Source: Hyphomicrobiales bacterium (GTDB lineage: Bacteria > Pseudomonadota > Alphaproteobacteria > Rhizobiales > Beijerinckiaceae). Taken from it: a stretch of 64,000 nucleotides of DNA. The translations under genes and the position numbers were made by a program. The DNA is taken from NCBI GenBank assembly GCA_027489955.1, contig JAIXYZ010000011.1:310001-374000 (forward strand), read 5' to 3'. A model generated the notes under the pieces. It saw only the letters and a program-made list of their open reading frames with translations, ran no database searches and had not been told where the DNA came from. Positions within the stretch are counted from its first letter, which is position 1; the number at the start of each line of letters is the position of its first letter. Below, one piece after another: positions 42,344-49,079 of the stretch.

Positions 42344-42748
42344 ATGGCCCTGAAAGTCGAACTCAAGCCCGATGAACGCCTGATCGTCGGCACCGCGGTC
42401 ATCCGCAACGGAGACCAGCGGGTGAAGCTCTTCATCGAGGGCAATGCCCCGATCCTGCGGGAGAAGGACATCCTCACCCCCGCCTCGGCCGACACGCCGG
42501 CCAAGCGGATCTACCTCGCCATCCAGCTCATGTACCTGACGCAGGACCTGTCGGCGAACCACCAGATCTATTTCGAGCTGGTGCGCGATTTCCTCGCCGC
42601 CGTGCCGTCCAGTGCGGAGCTTATTGCGGATATCAATAACCGCATTTTAAGCGGCGACATGTACAAGGCCCTGAAGGCTGCCAAAAAGCTGATGGCCTAC
42701 GAGTCGGAGTTGCTGGACCATGCACTACGCGGCGACCACCTACGCTAA
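42344..42748 (+). CDS. flbT: Flagellar biosynthesis regulator FlbT
   Basis: FlbT is a post-transcriptional regulator of flagellin production found in alphaproteobacteria; in Caulobacter it binds flagellin mRNA and destabilises it when the hook is not complete. The 134-residue protein is the family length and has LKPDERLIVGTAVIRNGDQR and LREKDILTPASADTPAKRIY, then LYLTQDL-like MYLTQDLSANHQIYFELVRDF. GAGGGGG precedes the start. It overlaps flaF by 29 bases. No flagellin gene is in the window. Confidence 0.93.
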   Translation: MALKVELKPDERLIVGTAVIRNGDQRVKLFIEGNAPILREKDILTPASADTPAKRIYLAIQLMYLTQDLSANHQIYFELVRDFLAAVPSSAELIADINNRILSGDMYKALKAAKKLMAYESELLDHALRGDHLR

Positions 42749-43091
42749 GGTTTCCCAGTTCGCCCAGTCTCCCCGCGAACTGGAAGCGTCGGTGCTCATG
42801 AAGGCCGCGGTCCGGCTCCAGACCATCAAGGAGAACTGGGCCGAGCGCGCCGGCGAACTCGACGAGGCGCTGCTCTACAACCGCAAGCTCTGGACCGTGC
42901 TCGTCACCGCCGTGACCGAGCCGGAAAGCCAGCTCCCGGCCCAGATCAAGCAGAACATCGTGAATCTCGGCATGTTCATCTTCAAGCGCACGCTCGACCT
43001 CGGGTCCGAGCCGGTGCCGGAGAAGCTGACGGTCCTGATCAACATCAACCGCGAGATCGCGGCCGGCCTGCGGATGCAGCCCGCCGCCTGA
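42720..43091 (+). CDS. flaF: Flagellin assembly factor FlaF
   Basis: FlaF is a small protein needed for flagellin synthesis or secretion in alphaproteobacteria and works against FlbT. The 123-residue protein has the family pattern SPRELEASVLMKAAVRLQTI, WAERAGELDEALLYNRKLWTVL and LPAQIKQNIVNLGMFIFKRT. It starts inside the end of flbT (29-base overlap, different frame). It converges on flgL with a 65-base gap. Confidence 0.92.
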   Translation: MHYAATTYAKVSQFAQSPRELEASVLMKAAVRLQTIKENWAERAGELDEALLYNRKLWTVLVTAVTEPESQLPAQIKQNIVNLGMFIFKRTLDLGSEPVPEKLTVLININREIAAGLRMQPAA

Positions 43092-43156: not shown

Positions 43157-44671
43157 TCAGCGCAGGAAGTTCGTCAGCGAAAGCTGCGAGAGGATCGACG
43201 TCGTCTGGTAGCTCGCCTGCAGGCGGGTCTGCAGCGACAGGATCGACACGGCGACCTCCTCGTCCGACACGCCTTCGACGCTGCCGATGACGTCCTCCAG
43301 GAAGGCGCGGCGCTGCTCGTGGCGGGTCTTGGCGCTCGCGAGCGAGACCGTGGATTCGGTGAGCTGCGAGGCCACGTCCTCCAGGTTCTGCACGCCCGGC
43401 ACCTTGCCCAGATTGGCGCTCAGCCTGTCGCCGAGCTCGCGGTAGCGCTCCCGGTCCGTGGTGGAGCCGGCGGAGAAGGTCTCGCTGGAGACCACCGCCA
43501 GATGGGCCAGCATGGTGCGGAACGCCTCCTCGTTGGCCCGGGCGCCGACCGCGACGGTCTCGCCGCTGTCCACGCGCACGGTCGCGGTCGCCCGCGCATC
43601 GCCGGCGCCGTCGTCGCCCTTGTACCAACGCATCGTCGCCTTGCCGGGATCGACGCCGTAGCCGGTGGCGGTGGCGGGGCTTCCGCCAATGACGCGTGGC
43701 GGATTGGTGCCGGTGGAACCCGTGAAGAAGTCGCTGGAGGCGCGGATCGCCGAGGCGGCGGCGAGCGAGGTGCGCACCTCCGTATCGAGCGCCGCCGTCA
43801 CGGCGGCCGAGAGGGCGCTCGCGGTCGCCGCGGTGGAGCCTCCGATCAGGAACGAGCCGGCGGCGGCCGGCCCGGGGCCGGACTGGGCGGTGAGCTCGAC
43901 GCTGGTCTGCGTGCCGTCCGGAAGGTCGAGGACGATGCGCACCCGGTCGCCAGGGTTGGGCTGGGCGTTGACGTCGAAATCGACCGTGGCGGGATCGGTG
44001 TTGGTGAAGGTCGCGGCGATGCCCGAGCCCGTCGCCGAGGCGCCCGCCAGCTTGAACCCGAAGGGCAGCGCTGCCGCCTCCTCCGCGATCTCCACATTCG
44101 TTCCGGTGGGCGAAACCGTCAGGCGCCCGAGCCCGGCGGCGCCGGCATCCGCCAGCTTGCGCTCGGCGATGAGCGTGGTGACGCCGTCGCCCGTGGCATC
44201 GCCGTTCATGATGGCGTCGAAGCTGGCCACAGGCTTGATGTCGGGCGAGCGGCCGGAGAACACGAAATTGCCGTTCACGTCCGTGTTGAGGACGTCCAGC
44301 GCCTGCTTCAGGCGGCTCTCCGCGGCCCGCTGGCTGACCGTGCGCCCGTCGGCGCCGGGGGCGAAGGCCTCCACCGACAGGTCCGTGCGGGACTCGCCCA
44401 CGAGCTTGCTGAGCTGCTCGACGCCGAGCGTCATGAACTTGAGACGCAGGTTCGCGTCGCCGATCGAGCCGAGATAGCCGGCGATGGCGGAGGTCGCGGC
44501 GCGCGCGTCGAGGCTCTTCGTGCGGCCGATGCCGAGCCCCCCATAGGTCTCGGCCTTGCGCCCGGTCGCGAGCTGGCGCTGCAGGTCGTCCAGCTGCGAG
44601 CGCATGGACACGAACATCGTGCTGGCGCGCTGGGTGCTGAACAGGCCGGGGGCGAAGGGGGAGATCGTCAT
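43157..44671 (-). CDS. flgL: Flagellar hook-filament junction protein FlgL
   Basis: FlgL (HAP3) joins the hook to the flagellin filament. The 504-residue protein has the flagellin-like N-terminus FSTQRASTMFVSMRSQLDDLQRQL and C-terminal helix EEVAVSILSLQTRLQASYQTTSILSQLS. It is longer than E. coli FlgL (317 residues); the extra part lies in the central region about 180-380, which would form surface domains. It follows flgK by 11 bases and is the last gene of the hook operon. A flagellin is the alternative reading, but position beside flgK supports FlgL. Confidence 0.88.
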   Translation of the reverse strand: MTISPFAPGLFSTQRASTMFVSMRSQLDDLQRQLATGRKAETYGGLGIGRTKSLDARAATSAIAGYLGSIGDANLRLKFMTLGVEQLSKLVGESRTDLSVEAFAPGADGRTVSQRAAESRLKQALDVLNTDVNGNFVFSGRSPDIKPVASFDAIMNGDATGDGVTTLIAERKLADAGAAGLGRLTVSPTGTNVEIAEEAAALPFGFKLAGASATGSGIAATFTNTDPATVDFDVNAQPNPGDRVRIVLDLPDGTQTSVELTAQSGPGPAAAGSFLIGGSTAATASALSAAVTAALDTEVRTSLAAASAIRASSDFFTGSTGTNPPRVIGGSPATATGYGVDPGKATMRWYKGDDGAGDARATATVRVDSGETVAVGARANEEAFRTMLAHLAVVSSETFSAGSTTDRERYRELGDRLSANLGKVPGVQNLEDVASQLTESTVSLASAKTRHEQRRAFLEDVIGSVEGVSDEEVAVSILSLQTRLQASYQTTSILSQLSLTNFLR

Positions 44672-44682
44672 CGGTCCGTCCT

Positions 44683-46533
44683 TCAGATGCGCAGCAGCAT
44701 GTCCATCATCTCCTTGGCGGCGGTGATGATCCGCGCGTTCGCGGAATACGCCGTCTGGAGCTGGACGAGTTGCGCCATTTCCTGGTCGATGTTGACGCCG
44801 GATTCCTCCGAATACCGGCCCTGCACCGTGGAGAGCGCCACCTGCTGGCCGGCATCGAGGCTGGCGGCCGCCTCTGCGGCTGCACCCTGGGTCTCGATGG
44901 TCCGGCGCGCGAAGGCGGCGACCGTGCCGTTGAACTGCGCCATCCCGCCGACGCCGGTGGCGGGCGAGAAGGTGAGGATCGTGTTGGACAGCTTGTCGAG
45001 CAGCGCGGTCGGCCGCGCCGGATCGCCGGCGGGAATGCCCGGCCCGTAGACGACCAGCCGCGAGGGGTCGGCCGCCAGCGCCGGGTTGACCGCGATGCGC
45101 TGGGCGAAGCCCGTCAGCTGGGACGTGCCGTTGAACGAGCCGGTATACGGCGTCGAGGCCGCCGCCCCGTCGACGAAGAAGGGCATTTCCGTCGTGCCGG
45201 CCGTCAGGCTGGTCTGCGTCACCGCCGTGCGCAGGCCGGTGACGTTGGTGGTCGCCCCCGCGCCGTCGTCGAGGATGCGCAGCGTCGAGCCCGCGGCGCT
45301 GACCGTGTAGCCGGGCCCGAGCGCCGCCTGGATCTGCGCCACCACGCCGGGCATGCCGCCGGACATGTCGATCGGGAAAACCTGGTCGCCGGTATCGGCC
45401 GTCGCCGTCGGCGGGAGCGATGCGACGCCGTCGGCCCGCACGAAGGAGAAGCGCCGTGCGGCGCCGGACGGCGTCAGCGTGGCGTCGAGCGTGATGACGT
45501 TGCCCGGCTGGAGCCCGGCTATATCCACCTCGAAGCCGCTGGCCGGACCGGCCGAGGCGGCGGTGCCGGTGCGCTGCTGGTCCGAGAGCGCGCGGGCAAG
45601 CCCGGCGGCCAGCTCGTCGAGCTGCTGCTGCGCCTGGACGAGGACCTTGTCGCGCTGCTCCACATAGGCGGCGAGCTCGCCCGAGCGCAGGGCCCGGCCG
45701 GCCAAGAGGTCGATGCTGCCGCCCGAGCCGTCCACCGCGCGGATCGTGCCGAGCGTCGAGACCGCCGGATCGGTGCTGTAGACCGAGCCCGGGCCCATAT
45801 TGGGCGTCTGCGTGAATTCCAGGCGCACCGCGTTGCGCCCGTCGAAGAGCTGCAGGCCGCCGGTGGTGAAGACCGTGACCGAGCCATCGCCCGCATCGGC
45901 GACACGCACGTCCATGAGGCCGGAGAGGTCGTTGATGATGCGGTCGCGCTGGTCGAGCAGCGCGGGCGAGGCCGCGCCGTCGGGATAGCCCACGACCTCC
46001 TGGTTGACCCTCGCCAGCTGGCTCAGCAGCTCGTTGGCGCGGTTGACGCCGCTGGCGATGGCGTTCTCCGCCCCGCGCCGCAGGTCCTGCACGCTGGAGG
46101 ACAGCCGGTTGAGCTGCGTCGCCAGCGTCGAGGCGGCGCTGATCACCTCGCCGCGCGCCGAGAGCGGCGAGGCCTGGAGCGCCTGCAGGGACTCGGCGAA
46201 GGCGTTGATCCGCGTGTCGAGGGCGTTGACGCCGCCGGGCTGGCCGAAGAGCTGGTCGAGAGCCTTGGCGAAGTCGGCGCGCACGGCGGTATAGCCCGCG
46301 CCCGACGTCTCCAGCCGCAGCTGCTTCTGGACGAGCGAATCCAGCATGCGCTGGACGTTGCCGGTCAGCACGCCCGAGGAGCGGCCGCCCGAGACGGACT
46401 CGATCGGGCTCAGGATGCGGCGGTTATAGCCCGCCGAACCCGCATTCGCGACGTTGGTCGAGACGACTTCCATGCCGGCCTGCGTCATGCGCAGGCCGCT
46501 CATGGCATTGTTCATGGCTGCCGCCAGACTCAT
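44683..46533 (-). CDS. flgK: Flagellar hook-associated protein FlgK
   Basis: FlgK (HAP1) sits at the distal end of the hook. The 616-residue protein opens with SLAAAMNNAMSGLRMTQAGM and contains STNVANAGSAGYNRR, typical of rod-hook family N-termini. Its C-terminus VNIDQEMAQLVQLQTAYSANARIITAAKEMMDMLLRI pairs with the N-terminus to form the coiled core. Codes for secretion by the flagellar type III system, so no signal peptide is expected. It starts 41 bases after flgE and precedes flgL. Confidence 0.95.
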   Translation of the reverse strand: MSLAAAMNNAMSGLRMTQAGMEVVSTNVANAGSAGYNRRILSPIESVSGGRSSGVLTGNVQRMLDSLVQKQLRLETSGAGYTAVRADFAKALDQLFGQPGGVNALDTRINAFAESLQALQASPLSARGEVISAASTLATQLNRLSSSVQDLRRGAENAIASGVNRANELLSQLARVNQEVVGYPDGAASPALLDQRDRIINDLSGLMDVRVADAGDGSVTVFTTGGLQLFDGRNAVRLEFTQTPNMGPGSVYSTDPAVSTLGTIRAVDGSGGSIDLLAGRALRSGELAAYVEQRDKVLVQAQQQLDELAAGLARALSDQQRTGTAASAGPASGFEVDIAGLQPGNVITLDATLTPSGAARRFSFVRADGVASLPPTATADTGDQVFPIDMSGGMPGVVAQIQAALGPGYTVSAAGSTLRILDDGAGATTNVTGLRTAVTQTSLTAGTTEMPFFVDGAAASTPYTGSFNGTSQLTGFAQRIAVNPALAADPSRLVVYGPGIPAGDPARPTALLDKLSNTILTFSPATGVGGMAQFNGTVAAFARRTIETQGAAAEAAASLDAGQQVALSTVQGRYSEESGVNIDQEMAQLVQLQTAYSANARIITAAKEMMDMLLRI

Positions 46534-46574: not shown

Positions 46575-47927
46575 TTACCTGACGATGTTGATCACATCCT
46601 GCAGCATCTGCTGCGCAGTCGTGACCACGCGGGTGTTCGCACTGTAGGCCTGCTGAGTTACGATCATCTTTGCGAATTCCTCCGCAATGTCGGTATTCGA
46701 CCCTTCCAGCGTGCCACCAAGGATGGAGGAACCGCCGATTCCGATGATCGGCGCGCCCGATTCCAGGGTCTGCGCGAAGGCGCCGCCGTCGAGCCGCTGC
46801 AACGCGTTCGCCGCGTTGAACTGGGCCACGGCGATCTGGGCCAGCGTCGCCACCTGCCCGTTGGAATAGGTGCCGGTGATCTGGCCTTCGCCCGTCACCG
46901 AGATGCGCTCCAGCGTGCCGGCGGCATAGCCGTCCTGGCTGATGCCGGAGCCGCGCACCGAGCCCGAGGAATCGGCGAACTGGGTGAGGCCGTTATTGCC
47001 CACCTGGATGTCGACGTTGCCGATGGCGACGCCGTTGACGGTGAGGCCCGTGATCGGGAACACGCCGCCCGCAGGCGTGGCGAGCTGGCCGGTGGCGTTG
47101 AACGTCGCCTGGCCGATCCGCGTCCAGGCCGGCTGGGCGCCGGTCGCGTTGGAATCGGACTGGTAATAGAGCTGCCACGTATTGGCGGCCGACTTGGCCC
47201 AGCGCATCTGCACCGTGGCCGGCGCGCCGACCGAGTTGTAAACCACGATGGAGCCGCCGAAAAGCGAGGAATCCAGCAGGTCCTGCACATCGTTGGCGGC
47301 GACCGTGGCGCCGCCCGCGGTCGGGTCCGTCGCGAAGTCGGCGGGGTTGATGAACTCGCTGCCCGGCGTCGCCGGGTCGGCATTCGGCGTCGAGGGATAG
47401 CTCGGCAGGTTGGCCGAGTACTCGATGCTGGTCGTCTGCCGCGCCGGGACCTGCACGTCCGACAGGCGGATCGGCTGGTTGGAGCCGGTGACGGCGCCGG
47501 TCACCGGGTCCAGCGTGTTGCCGCGCAGGTAATAGCCCGCCCCGTTCACCAGGAAGCCGTCGCGGTCGATCGTGAAGTCGCCGCGGCGGGTGAAGAGCTG
47601 CTGGTCGCTGAAGACCGGATTGCCCGCCACGTAGTCGGTGCGCTCGGCGATGGCGAAGAAGCCCTCGCCGTTGATCGCCATGTTGGTGGAGACGCCGGTC
47701 GTGTTGAAATCGCCCTGGATCGTGTTGGTCCCGCGCGAGAAGGCGGCGACCGAGCCGGCGAGCGACTGACGCGGAGGCAGGTCCGGGATCAGGTCCACGA
47801 AGCTCGTGTCGATCCGCTTGAAACCCGTCGTCTGCGAGTTGGCGATATTGCCGGAGATATTCTCCAGCGCGTAGGACTGCGCCCGCAGGCCGGACACCGC
47901 CGTCAGCATCGCGCCGAACACACCCAT
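46575..47927 (-). CDS. flgE: Flagellar hook protein FlgE
   Basis: FlgE is the main subunit of the hook, the universal joint of the flagellum. The 450-residue protein starts MGVFGAMLTAVSGLRAQSYA and has the signature ENISGNIANSQTTGFKRI. Its C-terminus (EEFAKMIVTQQAYSANTRVVTTAQQMLQDVI, shown in part) is typical. I chose the ATG at 47927, which has GGAGGAGA six bases ahead; a frame to 47966 lacks support. A sigma-54 promoter lies about 60 bases upstream, so this gene heads the flgE-flgK-flgL operon. Confidence 0.94.
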   Translation of the reverse strand: MGVFGAMLTAVSGLRAQSYALENISGNIANSQTTGFKRIDTSFVDLIPDLPPRQSLAGSVAAFSRGTNTIQGDFNTTGVSTNMAINGEGFFAIAERTDYVAGNPVFSDQQLFTRRGDFTIDRDGFLVNGAGYYLRGNTLDPVTGAVTGSNQPIRLSDVQVPARQTTSIEYSANLPSYPSTPNADPATPGSEFINPADFATDPTAGGATVAANDVQDLLDSSLFGGSIVVYNSVGAPATVQMRWAKSAANTWQLYYQSDSNATGAQPAWTRIGQATFNATGQLATPAGGVFPITGLTVNGVAIGNVDIQVGNNGLTQFADSSGSVRGSGISQDGYAAGTLERISVTGEGQITGTYSNGQVATLAQIAVAQFNAANALQRLDGGAFAQTLESGAPIIGIGGSSILGGTLEGSNTDIAEEFAKMIVTQQAYSANTRVVTTAQQMLQDVINIVR

Positions 47928-47987
47928 GATCGTCTCCTCCACCGCCCCCGCTCGCGGGGTGCGCACACCTGAACCTGGCGATGGCGT

Positions 47988-48004
47988 CGCAATGGGCGTG
48001 CCAG
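47988..48004 (-). promoter_or_regulatory. Sigma-54 promoter of the hook operon
   Basis: On the minus strand this reads CTGGCACGCCCATTGCG: TGGCACG, four bases, TTGC. It matches the sigma-54 consensus (YTGGCACGrNNNTTGCW) at nearly every position with exact -24/-12 spacing. Transcription would start near 47977, leaving a leader of about 50 bases before flgE. In Caulobacter the hook genes are likewise sigma-54 dependent. Confidence 0.85.
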
Positions 48005-48086
48005 TGGGCTGGATGAGCGATTCCAGAGGGTTAGTTGGAGGCAGCGGGGGCGGACACGGCCGCAGGCGGCCGATTCGCCCCGGCGT

Positions 48087-48105
48087 CCCGGCAAAACCTG
48101 CCGGG
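48087..48105. promoter_or_regulatory. Palindrome CCCGGCAAAACCTGCCGGG, candidate FlbD enhancer
   Basis: This 19-base inverted repeat (CCCGGCA...TGCCGGG) lies about 100 bases upstream of the sigma-54 promoter of flgE, the right distance for a bound activator. In Caulobacter, FlbD works at CCCGGCA-like ftr sites. It also sits just after the stop of the YcjF-like gene, so it could instead be the terminator of that gene, but no T run follows on the minus strand. Confidence 0.5.
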
Positions 48106-48107
48106 CG

Positions 48108-49079
48108 TCACTCGGCCTTGCGCAGGAGGTCGCCCGCGACCTCGGAGACCGTCGGCATCGGTGCGCGCACGAAGGGGAGCGGCCGGCACACCGCGATTGC
48201 CGCCAGCCCGATCCGCGCGGTCAGGAGCCCGTTCAGGACGCCCTCGCCCGCCTTCGCCGAGATGCGCGCGGCCAGCCCGTGGCCCATGGCCTGTCCGATG
48301 ATGCTGTCGCCCGCCGCCATGCCGCCGGTGACAACGAGCTGGCCGGCGACGGCGCGCGCCAGCCGCGCGAAGCCCAGCGTGCCGGGCCGGCCGCCATAGA
48401 TGCCCGAAACGATGCGCACCAGCCTCGCCGCCGCATAGAGCGTGAAGGCGACGTCGATGATCGCGCGGGGACTGACGGCGGTGACGAGCGCGACCTGCCG
48501 GGCGCTGACCGCCACCGCCTGCCGGGCCCGGGCGTCGAACGGGGTCAGCAGCGCCTGCTCGGCCATGGCGAGCCGGTCGTCGGCGTCGATGATCGTGTCG
48601 GCCTCCGCCGCGAGCGCCGCCCGCCCGGCGGCCGTCTCCGGCCTTCCGCCATAGAGCGAGACGAGATCCGCCACGACCGATGCCGCCCCTGCGGCGTCGC
48701 GGGCGATAAGGGCATCGCTCGCGCGCCGGTGGAGCGCGGCGATCCGCCGTTCCCGCAGCAGCCCGGCAAGCTCGCGGCCGACGATGACGAGGAAGGCCAG
48801 CGCCGCAACAACGGCGAGCGCGATCGCCACGAACCCGGCGGCCGGATACAGCGCCAGGAGGCCCGAGACCAGGCGCTCGACCCAGAACCCGAAGGCGATG
48901 ACGAGGAGGCCGCCGACCGAGGCCATGAGGAGACTGCCCCAGCCCCGGCGCGGGCGCTGCGGCTCCTCCACCGGCACGAGCGGCGCGTCGAAGGCGTCGG
49001 GATCGGCGGAGACGGTGATCGTGGGACCCCGTCCCTCCTCCGTTCCGGCGAGCGGGAAGGCGCGCGGCTTCGTCGTCAT
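48108..49079 (-). CDS. YcjF / TIGR01620-type membrane protein
   Basis: The 323-residue protein of the UPF0283 type has a polar N-terminal tail of about 47 residues, two membrane segments near 48-72 and 77-101, and a C-terminal region with ADTIIDADDRLAMAEQALLTPFDARARQAV and AGDSIIGQAMGHGLAARISAK. The family is always next to YcjX and its function is unknown; both are upregulated by envelope stress in E. coli. It starts 13 bases after YcjX. The hook operon control region lies just beyond its stop. Confidence 0.85.
   Translation of the reverse strand: MTTKPRAFPLAGTEEGRGPTITVSADPDAFDAPLVPVEEPQRPRRGWGSLLMASVGGLLVIAFGFWVERLVSGLLALYPAAGFVAIALAVVAALAFLVIVGRELAGLLRERRIAALHRRASDALIARDAAGAASVVADLVSLYGGRPETAAGRAALAAEADTIIDADDRLAMAEQALLTPFDARARQAVAVSARQVALVTAVSPRAIIDVAFTLYAAARLVRIVSGIYGGRPGTLGFARLARAVAGQLVVTGGMAAGDSIIGQAMGHGLAARISAKAGEGVLNGLLTARIGLAAIAVCRPLPFVRAPMPTVSEVAGDLLRKAE

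Follow-up and report, generated by a model that had tools for sequence, protein, structure and literature searches.

In Caulobacter crescentus, the class III flagellar promoters are controlled by FlbD, FliX and sigma-54, with ftr enhancers and IHF (PMC3930126, PMC3096577). As reviewed, FlbD represses early and activates middle flagellar genes in this bacterium, and its flagellins are described as RpoN-dependent (PMC3930126). The promoter considered here precedes the hook gene flgE of a Hyphomicrobiales bacterium (Beijerinckiaceae) and lies within a window of 64,000 nucleotides, which is the whole stretch of DNA that was analysed. Judged by its sequence, it belongs to a kind already known, the Caulobacter-type hook promoters run by FlbD and sigma-54. 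As far as the Caulobacter system is covered by the sources cited above, the two share the activator equivalog, FliX and RpoN, as well as hook, rod and ring targets; at early genes, both also have CtrA boxes next to the site. The enhancer is called ftr-like in the following, a label in which the likeness to the Caulobacter ftr rests on its description and not on its site sequences. Within the Hyphomicrobiales, FlbD–FliX control of flagella is represented by another member, Bradyrhizobium diazoefficiens, in which the pair was reportedly studied by Dardis in 2021 (J Bacteriol 203:e00403-20). With the present locus, this much-studied switch, which couples gene expression to assembly, would extend to a branch of the order that has received little study.

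The hook operon is encoded on the minus strand. Its first gene, flgE (46575–47927), matches the Pfam families FlgE_D2, Flg_bb_rod and Flg_bbr_C above cut-off, and its start was placed by alignment at the ATG at 47927, M1 being invariant in 14 aligned FlgE proteins. After a gap of about 40 bp comes flgK (44683–46533; FlgK_D1 in Pfam, and TIGR02492 with 292 bits, above cut-off), followed some 10 bp later by flgL (43157–44671), which was named from its position and from weak flagellin/FlgL matches, all of them below cut-off. The initial annotation placed flbT and flaF just past the end of the operon, and both are there, on the opposite (plus) strand and thus convergent with it: flbT at 42344–42748 (PF07378, 145.6 bits; NF009432 above cut-off) and flaF at 42720–43091 (PF07309, 112.8 bits; NF009435 above cut-off). 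On the other side, the upstream neighbor is a gene for a DUF697/TIGR01620 protein (48108–49079, minus strand; Pfam and TIGR profile matches), which stands outside the switch.

Between this neighbor and flgE, the minus strand at 48004–47988 reads CTGGCACGCCCATTGCG. It contains, at 48004–47989, the -24/-12 elements of a sigma-54 promoter (CTGGCACG-CCCA-TTGC), with the GG and GC elements 10 bp apart and an exact match to the consensus TGGCACG-N4-TTGC. The flgE ATG lies 61 bp past this promoter, and the predicted transcription start is near 47977, about 50 nt ahead of the ATG; a ribosome-binding site, GGAGGAG, occupies 47934–47940 on the same strand. Upstream of the promoter is a perfect palindrome, the candidate FlbD-type site (48087–48105, centre 48096), which reads CCCGGCAAAACCTGCCGGG on the plus strand and is centred 93 bp upstream of the -24 T (the T of TGGCAC). 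The initial annotation, which had claimed a sigma-54 promoter before flgE and a palindrome about 100 bases farther upstream, was therefore right about both elements. Two more features, identified by eye on the minus strand, are tentative: a possible second, degenerate FlbD site at 48066–48081, GGCGAATCGGCCG, which aligns with GACGAATCTGCC of relatives, and a possible degenerate IHF site at 48020–48040, CTCCAACTAACCCTCTGGAAT, where relatives have better IHF-like sites.

In the 3.13 Mb genome, the flgE promoter is the one exact match to YTGGCACGNNNNTTGC, for which base composition predicts about 1.0, and 48087–48105 is the one exact match to CCCGGCAN5TGCCGGG, for which it predicts about 0.24. 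Genome-wide, the sigma-54 pattern with up to two mismatches is not enriched (264 + 248 matches vs 370 + 408 in the reversed control). Neither element is therefore striking alone; what counts for the promoter is its location and not its rarity, and for the pair their position and conservation. These expected numbers are also what could be said for pure chance, that is, a random sigma-54-like string next to a random palindrome. However, the conservation of the arrangement in relatives and its recurrence at other flagellar operons rule this reading out, and we give it practically no weight. The region 47989–48105 is very probably the promoter and enhancer of the flgE–flgK–flgL operon, run by sigma-54 and FlbD.

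The regulators that such a promoter would use are encoded in the genome. There is one RpoN (a single Sigma54_DBD match, 223.5 bits), and eight proteins match Sigma54_activat, six of them strongly. One of the strong matches is a Caulobacter-type FlbD, identified by the NCBIfam equivalog NF050807 with 788.2 bits against a cut-off of 750; its gene (L049:18031–19386, minus strand) follows fliN-like and fliH-like genes, which were named from sequence. FliX (PF10768, 127.4 bits) is encoded divergently from flgI. In the same region as fliX and flgI, beside a fliI-like gene, is a response regulator with Response_reg and Trans_reg_C domains that we name CtrA-like from the start of the protein.

The receiver domain of FlbD scores 27 bits, under the Pfam cut-off of 30.2, and the acidic pair near its start is absent by eye (VGRLNG), which would fit control via FliX rather than phosphorylation. 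FlbD has been described as lacking a cognate sensor kinase (PMC7064773). A dCache–HisKA–HATPase sensor kinase, assigned from its domain matches, is found about 50 bp past flbD on the same strand in both genomes of the genus (here L049:16191–17984, contig C5, minus strand); it was not found in the adjoining stretch of the three other genomes inspected (L099–L101).

The palindrome is not confined to flgE. From 71 representative flgE promoters, 70 from relatives and that of the window itself, the consensus of the site is (C)CGGCARWWYYTGCCG(G). The pattern CGGCARWWNYTGCCG occurs exactly at four places in the 3.13 Mb genome, against about 0.7 expected strand-hits, and all four precede flagellar genes: flgE, flhA and flgB, with the fourth between fliX and flgI. 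With one mismatch, 38 further places are found, which is no genome-wide enrichment over the reversed control (28 + 29 vs 57 + 55). The genes were read at two of them: C13:138493, between fliL and flgF, and C5:516156, which is followed 89 bp downstream by a one-mismatch sigma-54 site and precedes fliK–flgD. The latter unit was located from the motif first, and Pfam named FliK and FlgD afterwards. One-mismatch sigma-54 sites also accompany flgF and flgI, at 107 and 80 bp from the palindrome, respectively. A search for the same palindrome before other flagellar genes, as had been suggested at the outset, thus yields four exact and two one-mismatch sites at flagellar operons. The flgB, flgF, flgI, fliK, flhA and flgE sites all have counterparts at equivalent places in G022, the second genome of the genus that was searched, where the four sigma-54 promoters keep identical site-to-promoter distances. 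For regulon prediction, the useful form of the motif is (C)CGGCARWWYYTGCCG(G) located about 80–107 bp before TGGCAYG-N4-TTGC.

Both genomes of the genus have TTAACCAT, a CtrA-type box, ahead of the FlbD-type sites of flgB and flhA, and a full CtrA box, TTAAN7TTAA, adjoins the site at fliL/flgF. Such an arrangement would be expected of an FlbD that represses early genes and activates middle ones. At fliF, no FlbD-like site with up to two mismatches was found, just a CtrA-like box. On the Caulobacter model, sigma-54 polymerase would wait in a closed complex at 48004–47989 while FliX restrains FlbD until the early basal body and the export apparatus exist. FlbD would then bind the palindrome at 48105–48087, reach the polymerase by looping out roughly nine helical turns of DNA, in most relatives with the help of an IHF-like bend, and use ATP to open the flgE promoter. 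At flgB, flhA and fliL, where the site is beside CtrA boxes, FlbD probably represses, as described for the early genes of Caulobacter. FlbD binding, the position of the transcript start and rpoN dependence at flgE are what we infer from the arrangement of these elements.

The flagellins behave differently. In the promoter regions of the two flagellin genes of the genome (L048:17060–17262 and L048:18100–18400), which were also read by eye, neither a motif-like palindrome nor a sigma-54 site with one mismatch was found. The Caulobacter-like switch proposed by the initial annotation is therefore supported by RpoN, FlbD, FliX, the CtrA-like regulator and a motif conserved with FlbD, but it does not extend to the flagellins. 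This is a difference from Caulobacter, as that system is described in the sources cited above, and the poor IHF site of the window is another. In the first of the two flagellin regions (L048:17060–17262), stretches containing TTAACC are common to G022, which may point to control by a different regulator, perhaps CtrA.

The FlbD-type site was then compared with the distribution of FlbD in relatives. Among 60 genomes of the family, a FlgE match was found in 46 and FlbD (E < 1e-100) in 22. FlbD is present in every one of the 20 genomes whose FlgE match is close (E 2.3e-55 or better), and the best FlgE among genomes without FlbD has an E value of 1.5e-36; in two genomes of one genus (G012 and G053), FlbD is present and the FlgE matches are weak. 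Named relatives, among them Methylobacterium, Microvirga, Bosea, Alsobacter, Enterovirga, Phreatobacter, Rhodobium and Maritalea, were covered by a genome scan of 80 loci; their 88 promoters were reduced to 86, as the upstream regions of L108_0 and L145_0 were too short. Of 106 FlbD-type flgE promoters, 30, 41, 31 and 4 have a best sigma-54 match with 0, 1, 2 and 3 mismatches, respectively, so that an equivalent site with up to two mismatches is present in 102. A palindrome with at most one mismatch lies 40–150 bp upstream in 97 of the 106 and is missing in 9. In 79 representatives, 86 such sites were counted (1.09 per promoter vs 0.022 in shuffles). The type-B flgE promoters, all from genomes without FlbD, have the palindrome in 0 of 10. 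Similarly, the site is present in FlbD-type promoters of flgI (17/20, missing in 3) and flgF (18/20, missing in 2), whereas the type-B flgI and flgF promoters each show one stray one-mismatch palindrome per ten, without a good sigma-54 site beside it. These findings separate the FlbD-type flagellar system of the family from a second, FlbD-free one. Both types occur together in G020 and G034.

This distribution also bears on who uses the enhancer. With six strong Sigma54_activat proteins in the genome, a real enhancer could serve another enhancer-binding protein, such as NtrC, NtrX or another relative. We consider this very unlikely, because the exact motif matches are confined to flagellar promoters, because the motif accompanies FlbD and is lacking from the type-B flgE promoters examined, and because FlbD alone among the six sits amid flagellar genes in the 3.2–3.5 kb inspected around each. 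FlbD remains the preferred user of the site.

The palindrome might also be read as a terminator or 3'-end hairpin of the DUF697 gene, with the sigma-54 site alone belonging to flgE. Indeed, it begins 2 bases past the stop codon of that gene and has a GC-rich stem of 7 bp, and the flhA site likewise comes after the stop codon of the preceding gene. However, the palindrome is not followed by a T-run, and no terminator-like site was found there. It also keeps preferred distances from the promoter, and the same site occurs between the divergent genes fliL/flgF and fliX/flgI. Moreover, its presence in the 79 representatives is independent of the upstream gene: it was found in 26/27 promoters preceded by DUF697, in 3/4 preceded by a gene that we take to be SixA-like, in 7/7 preceded by a tandem flgE and in 35/41 with other or unassigned neighbors. 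A palindrome that is present in 97 of 106 FlbD-type promoters regardless of the gene before it, and in none of ten without FlbD, argues against a terminator; this reading, contradicted in addition by the missing terminator features, is extremely improbable, and the palindrome is best regarded as the FlbD-type enhancer. Tandem flgE copies are found in eight named relatives (L102, L104, L106, L108, L119, L125, L126 and L137); where enough upstream sequence is available, each copy has its own sigma-54 site and nearly all have their own palindrome.

Between the site and the promoter, many relatives carry a better IHF-like sequence than the window. The form WATCAAN4TTR, which we take to be the IHF consensus, was found with up to one mismatch on either strand in 44 of the 71 flgE promoters, vs 1.8 expected. 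Most IHF-like sites in the 82-bp spacing class of relatives read WATCAAN4TTR in the forward direction and have their centre 11–12 bp ahead of the -24 T, and promoters of the 92-bp class often have a CAAN4TTG core with its centre at about 27 bp.

The distances from the palindrome centre to the -24 T form a series. In the 79 representatives, they are mainly 70–73, 80–83, 90–94 and 101–103 bp, with no sites at 74–79, 84–89 or 95–100 and a few that are nearer (49–59) or farther (126 and more). For 67/71 of these distances, the deviation from 92.2 + n × 10.5 is no more than 2.1 bp; this phase was chosen from the flgE distances themselves. The FlgE tree requires a minimum of 12 changes between the four in-phase spacing classes, or 14 if every class is counted. 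The phase criterion was fixed before flgI and flgF were tested: flgI was in phase in 15/17 cases and flgF in 1/18, its distance being fixed near 107. Pooled, 16/35 are in phase vs 40% by chance, so a general rule of helical phasing is unconfirmed, flgF failing it. All of these fractions are raw counts that ignore shared descent. We see an even chance that the geometry of the FlbD loop is constrained in evolution, such that the spacing at Hyphomicrobiales flgE and flgI would shift almost only by whole turns (about 72, 82, 92 and 103 bp) with the IHF bend compensating, while flgF would be fixed on another face of the helix, perhaps as its site also serves the divergent fliL promoter. Sigma-54 loops sensitive to the helical repeat are known from the LuxO-dependent qrr enhancers of Vibrio, described as natural loops in which indels follow the DNA helical repeat (PMC4740811). 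The two cases are alike in this spacing, as far as described there, with LuxO and RNA targets in Vibrio and FlbD at flgE and flgI here. The present series is therefore a new instance and not a new principle, and offers natural material on the rigidity of short sigma-54 loops.

More generally, 385 genomes of Alphaproteobacteria were searched for the composite CGGCAN5TGCCG-N66-96-TGGCAYGN4TTGC. This yielded 25 matches in 23 genomes, and none in the reversed control. Seventeen precede flagellar genes: FlgE (3, including our own), FlgK (3), FliK (2), FlbT (2) and flagellin (7), one flagellin with a truncated start and one FlbT, second after a short ORF, being assigned by eye. Flagellins elsewhere in the class thus do have the element. 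With our own match left out, 17/24 distances are in phase, or 10/16 for flagellar targets alone, raw counts that likewise ignore shared descent and come from an unplanned use of the criterion in which the search pattern itself restricts distances to 74–104. The other eight matches precede two GGDEF genes, one response regulator and five genes without a Pfam match; the GGDEF genes and the lone response regulator belong to other Alphaproteobacteria (L274, L283 and L272).
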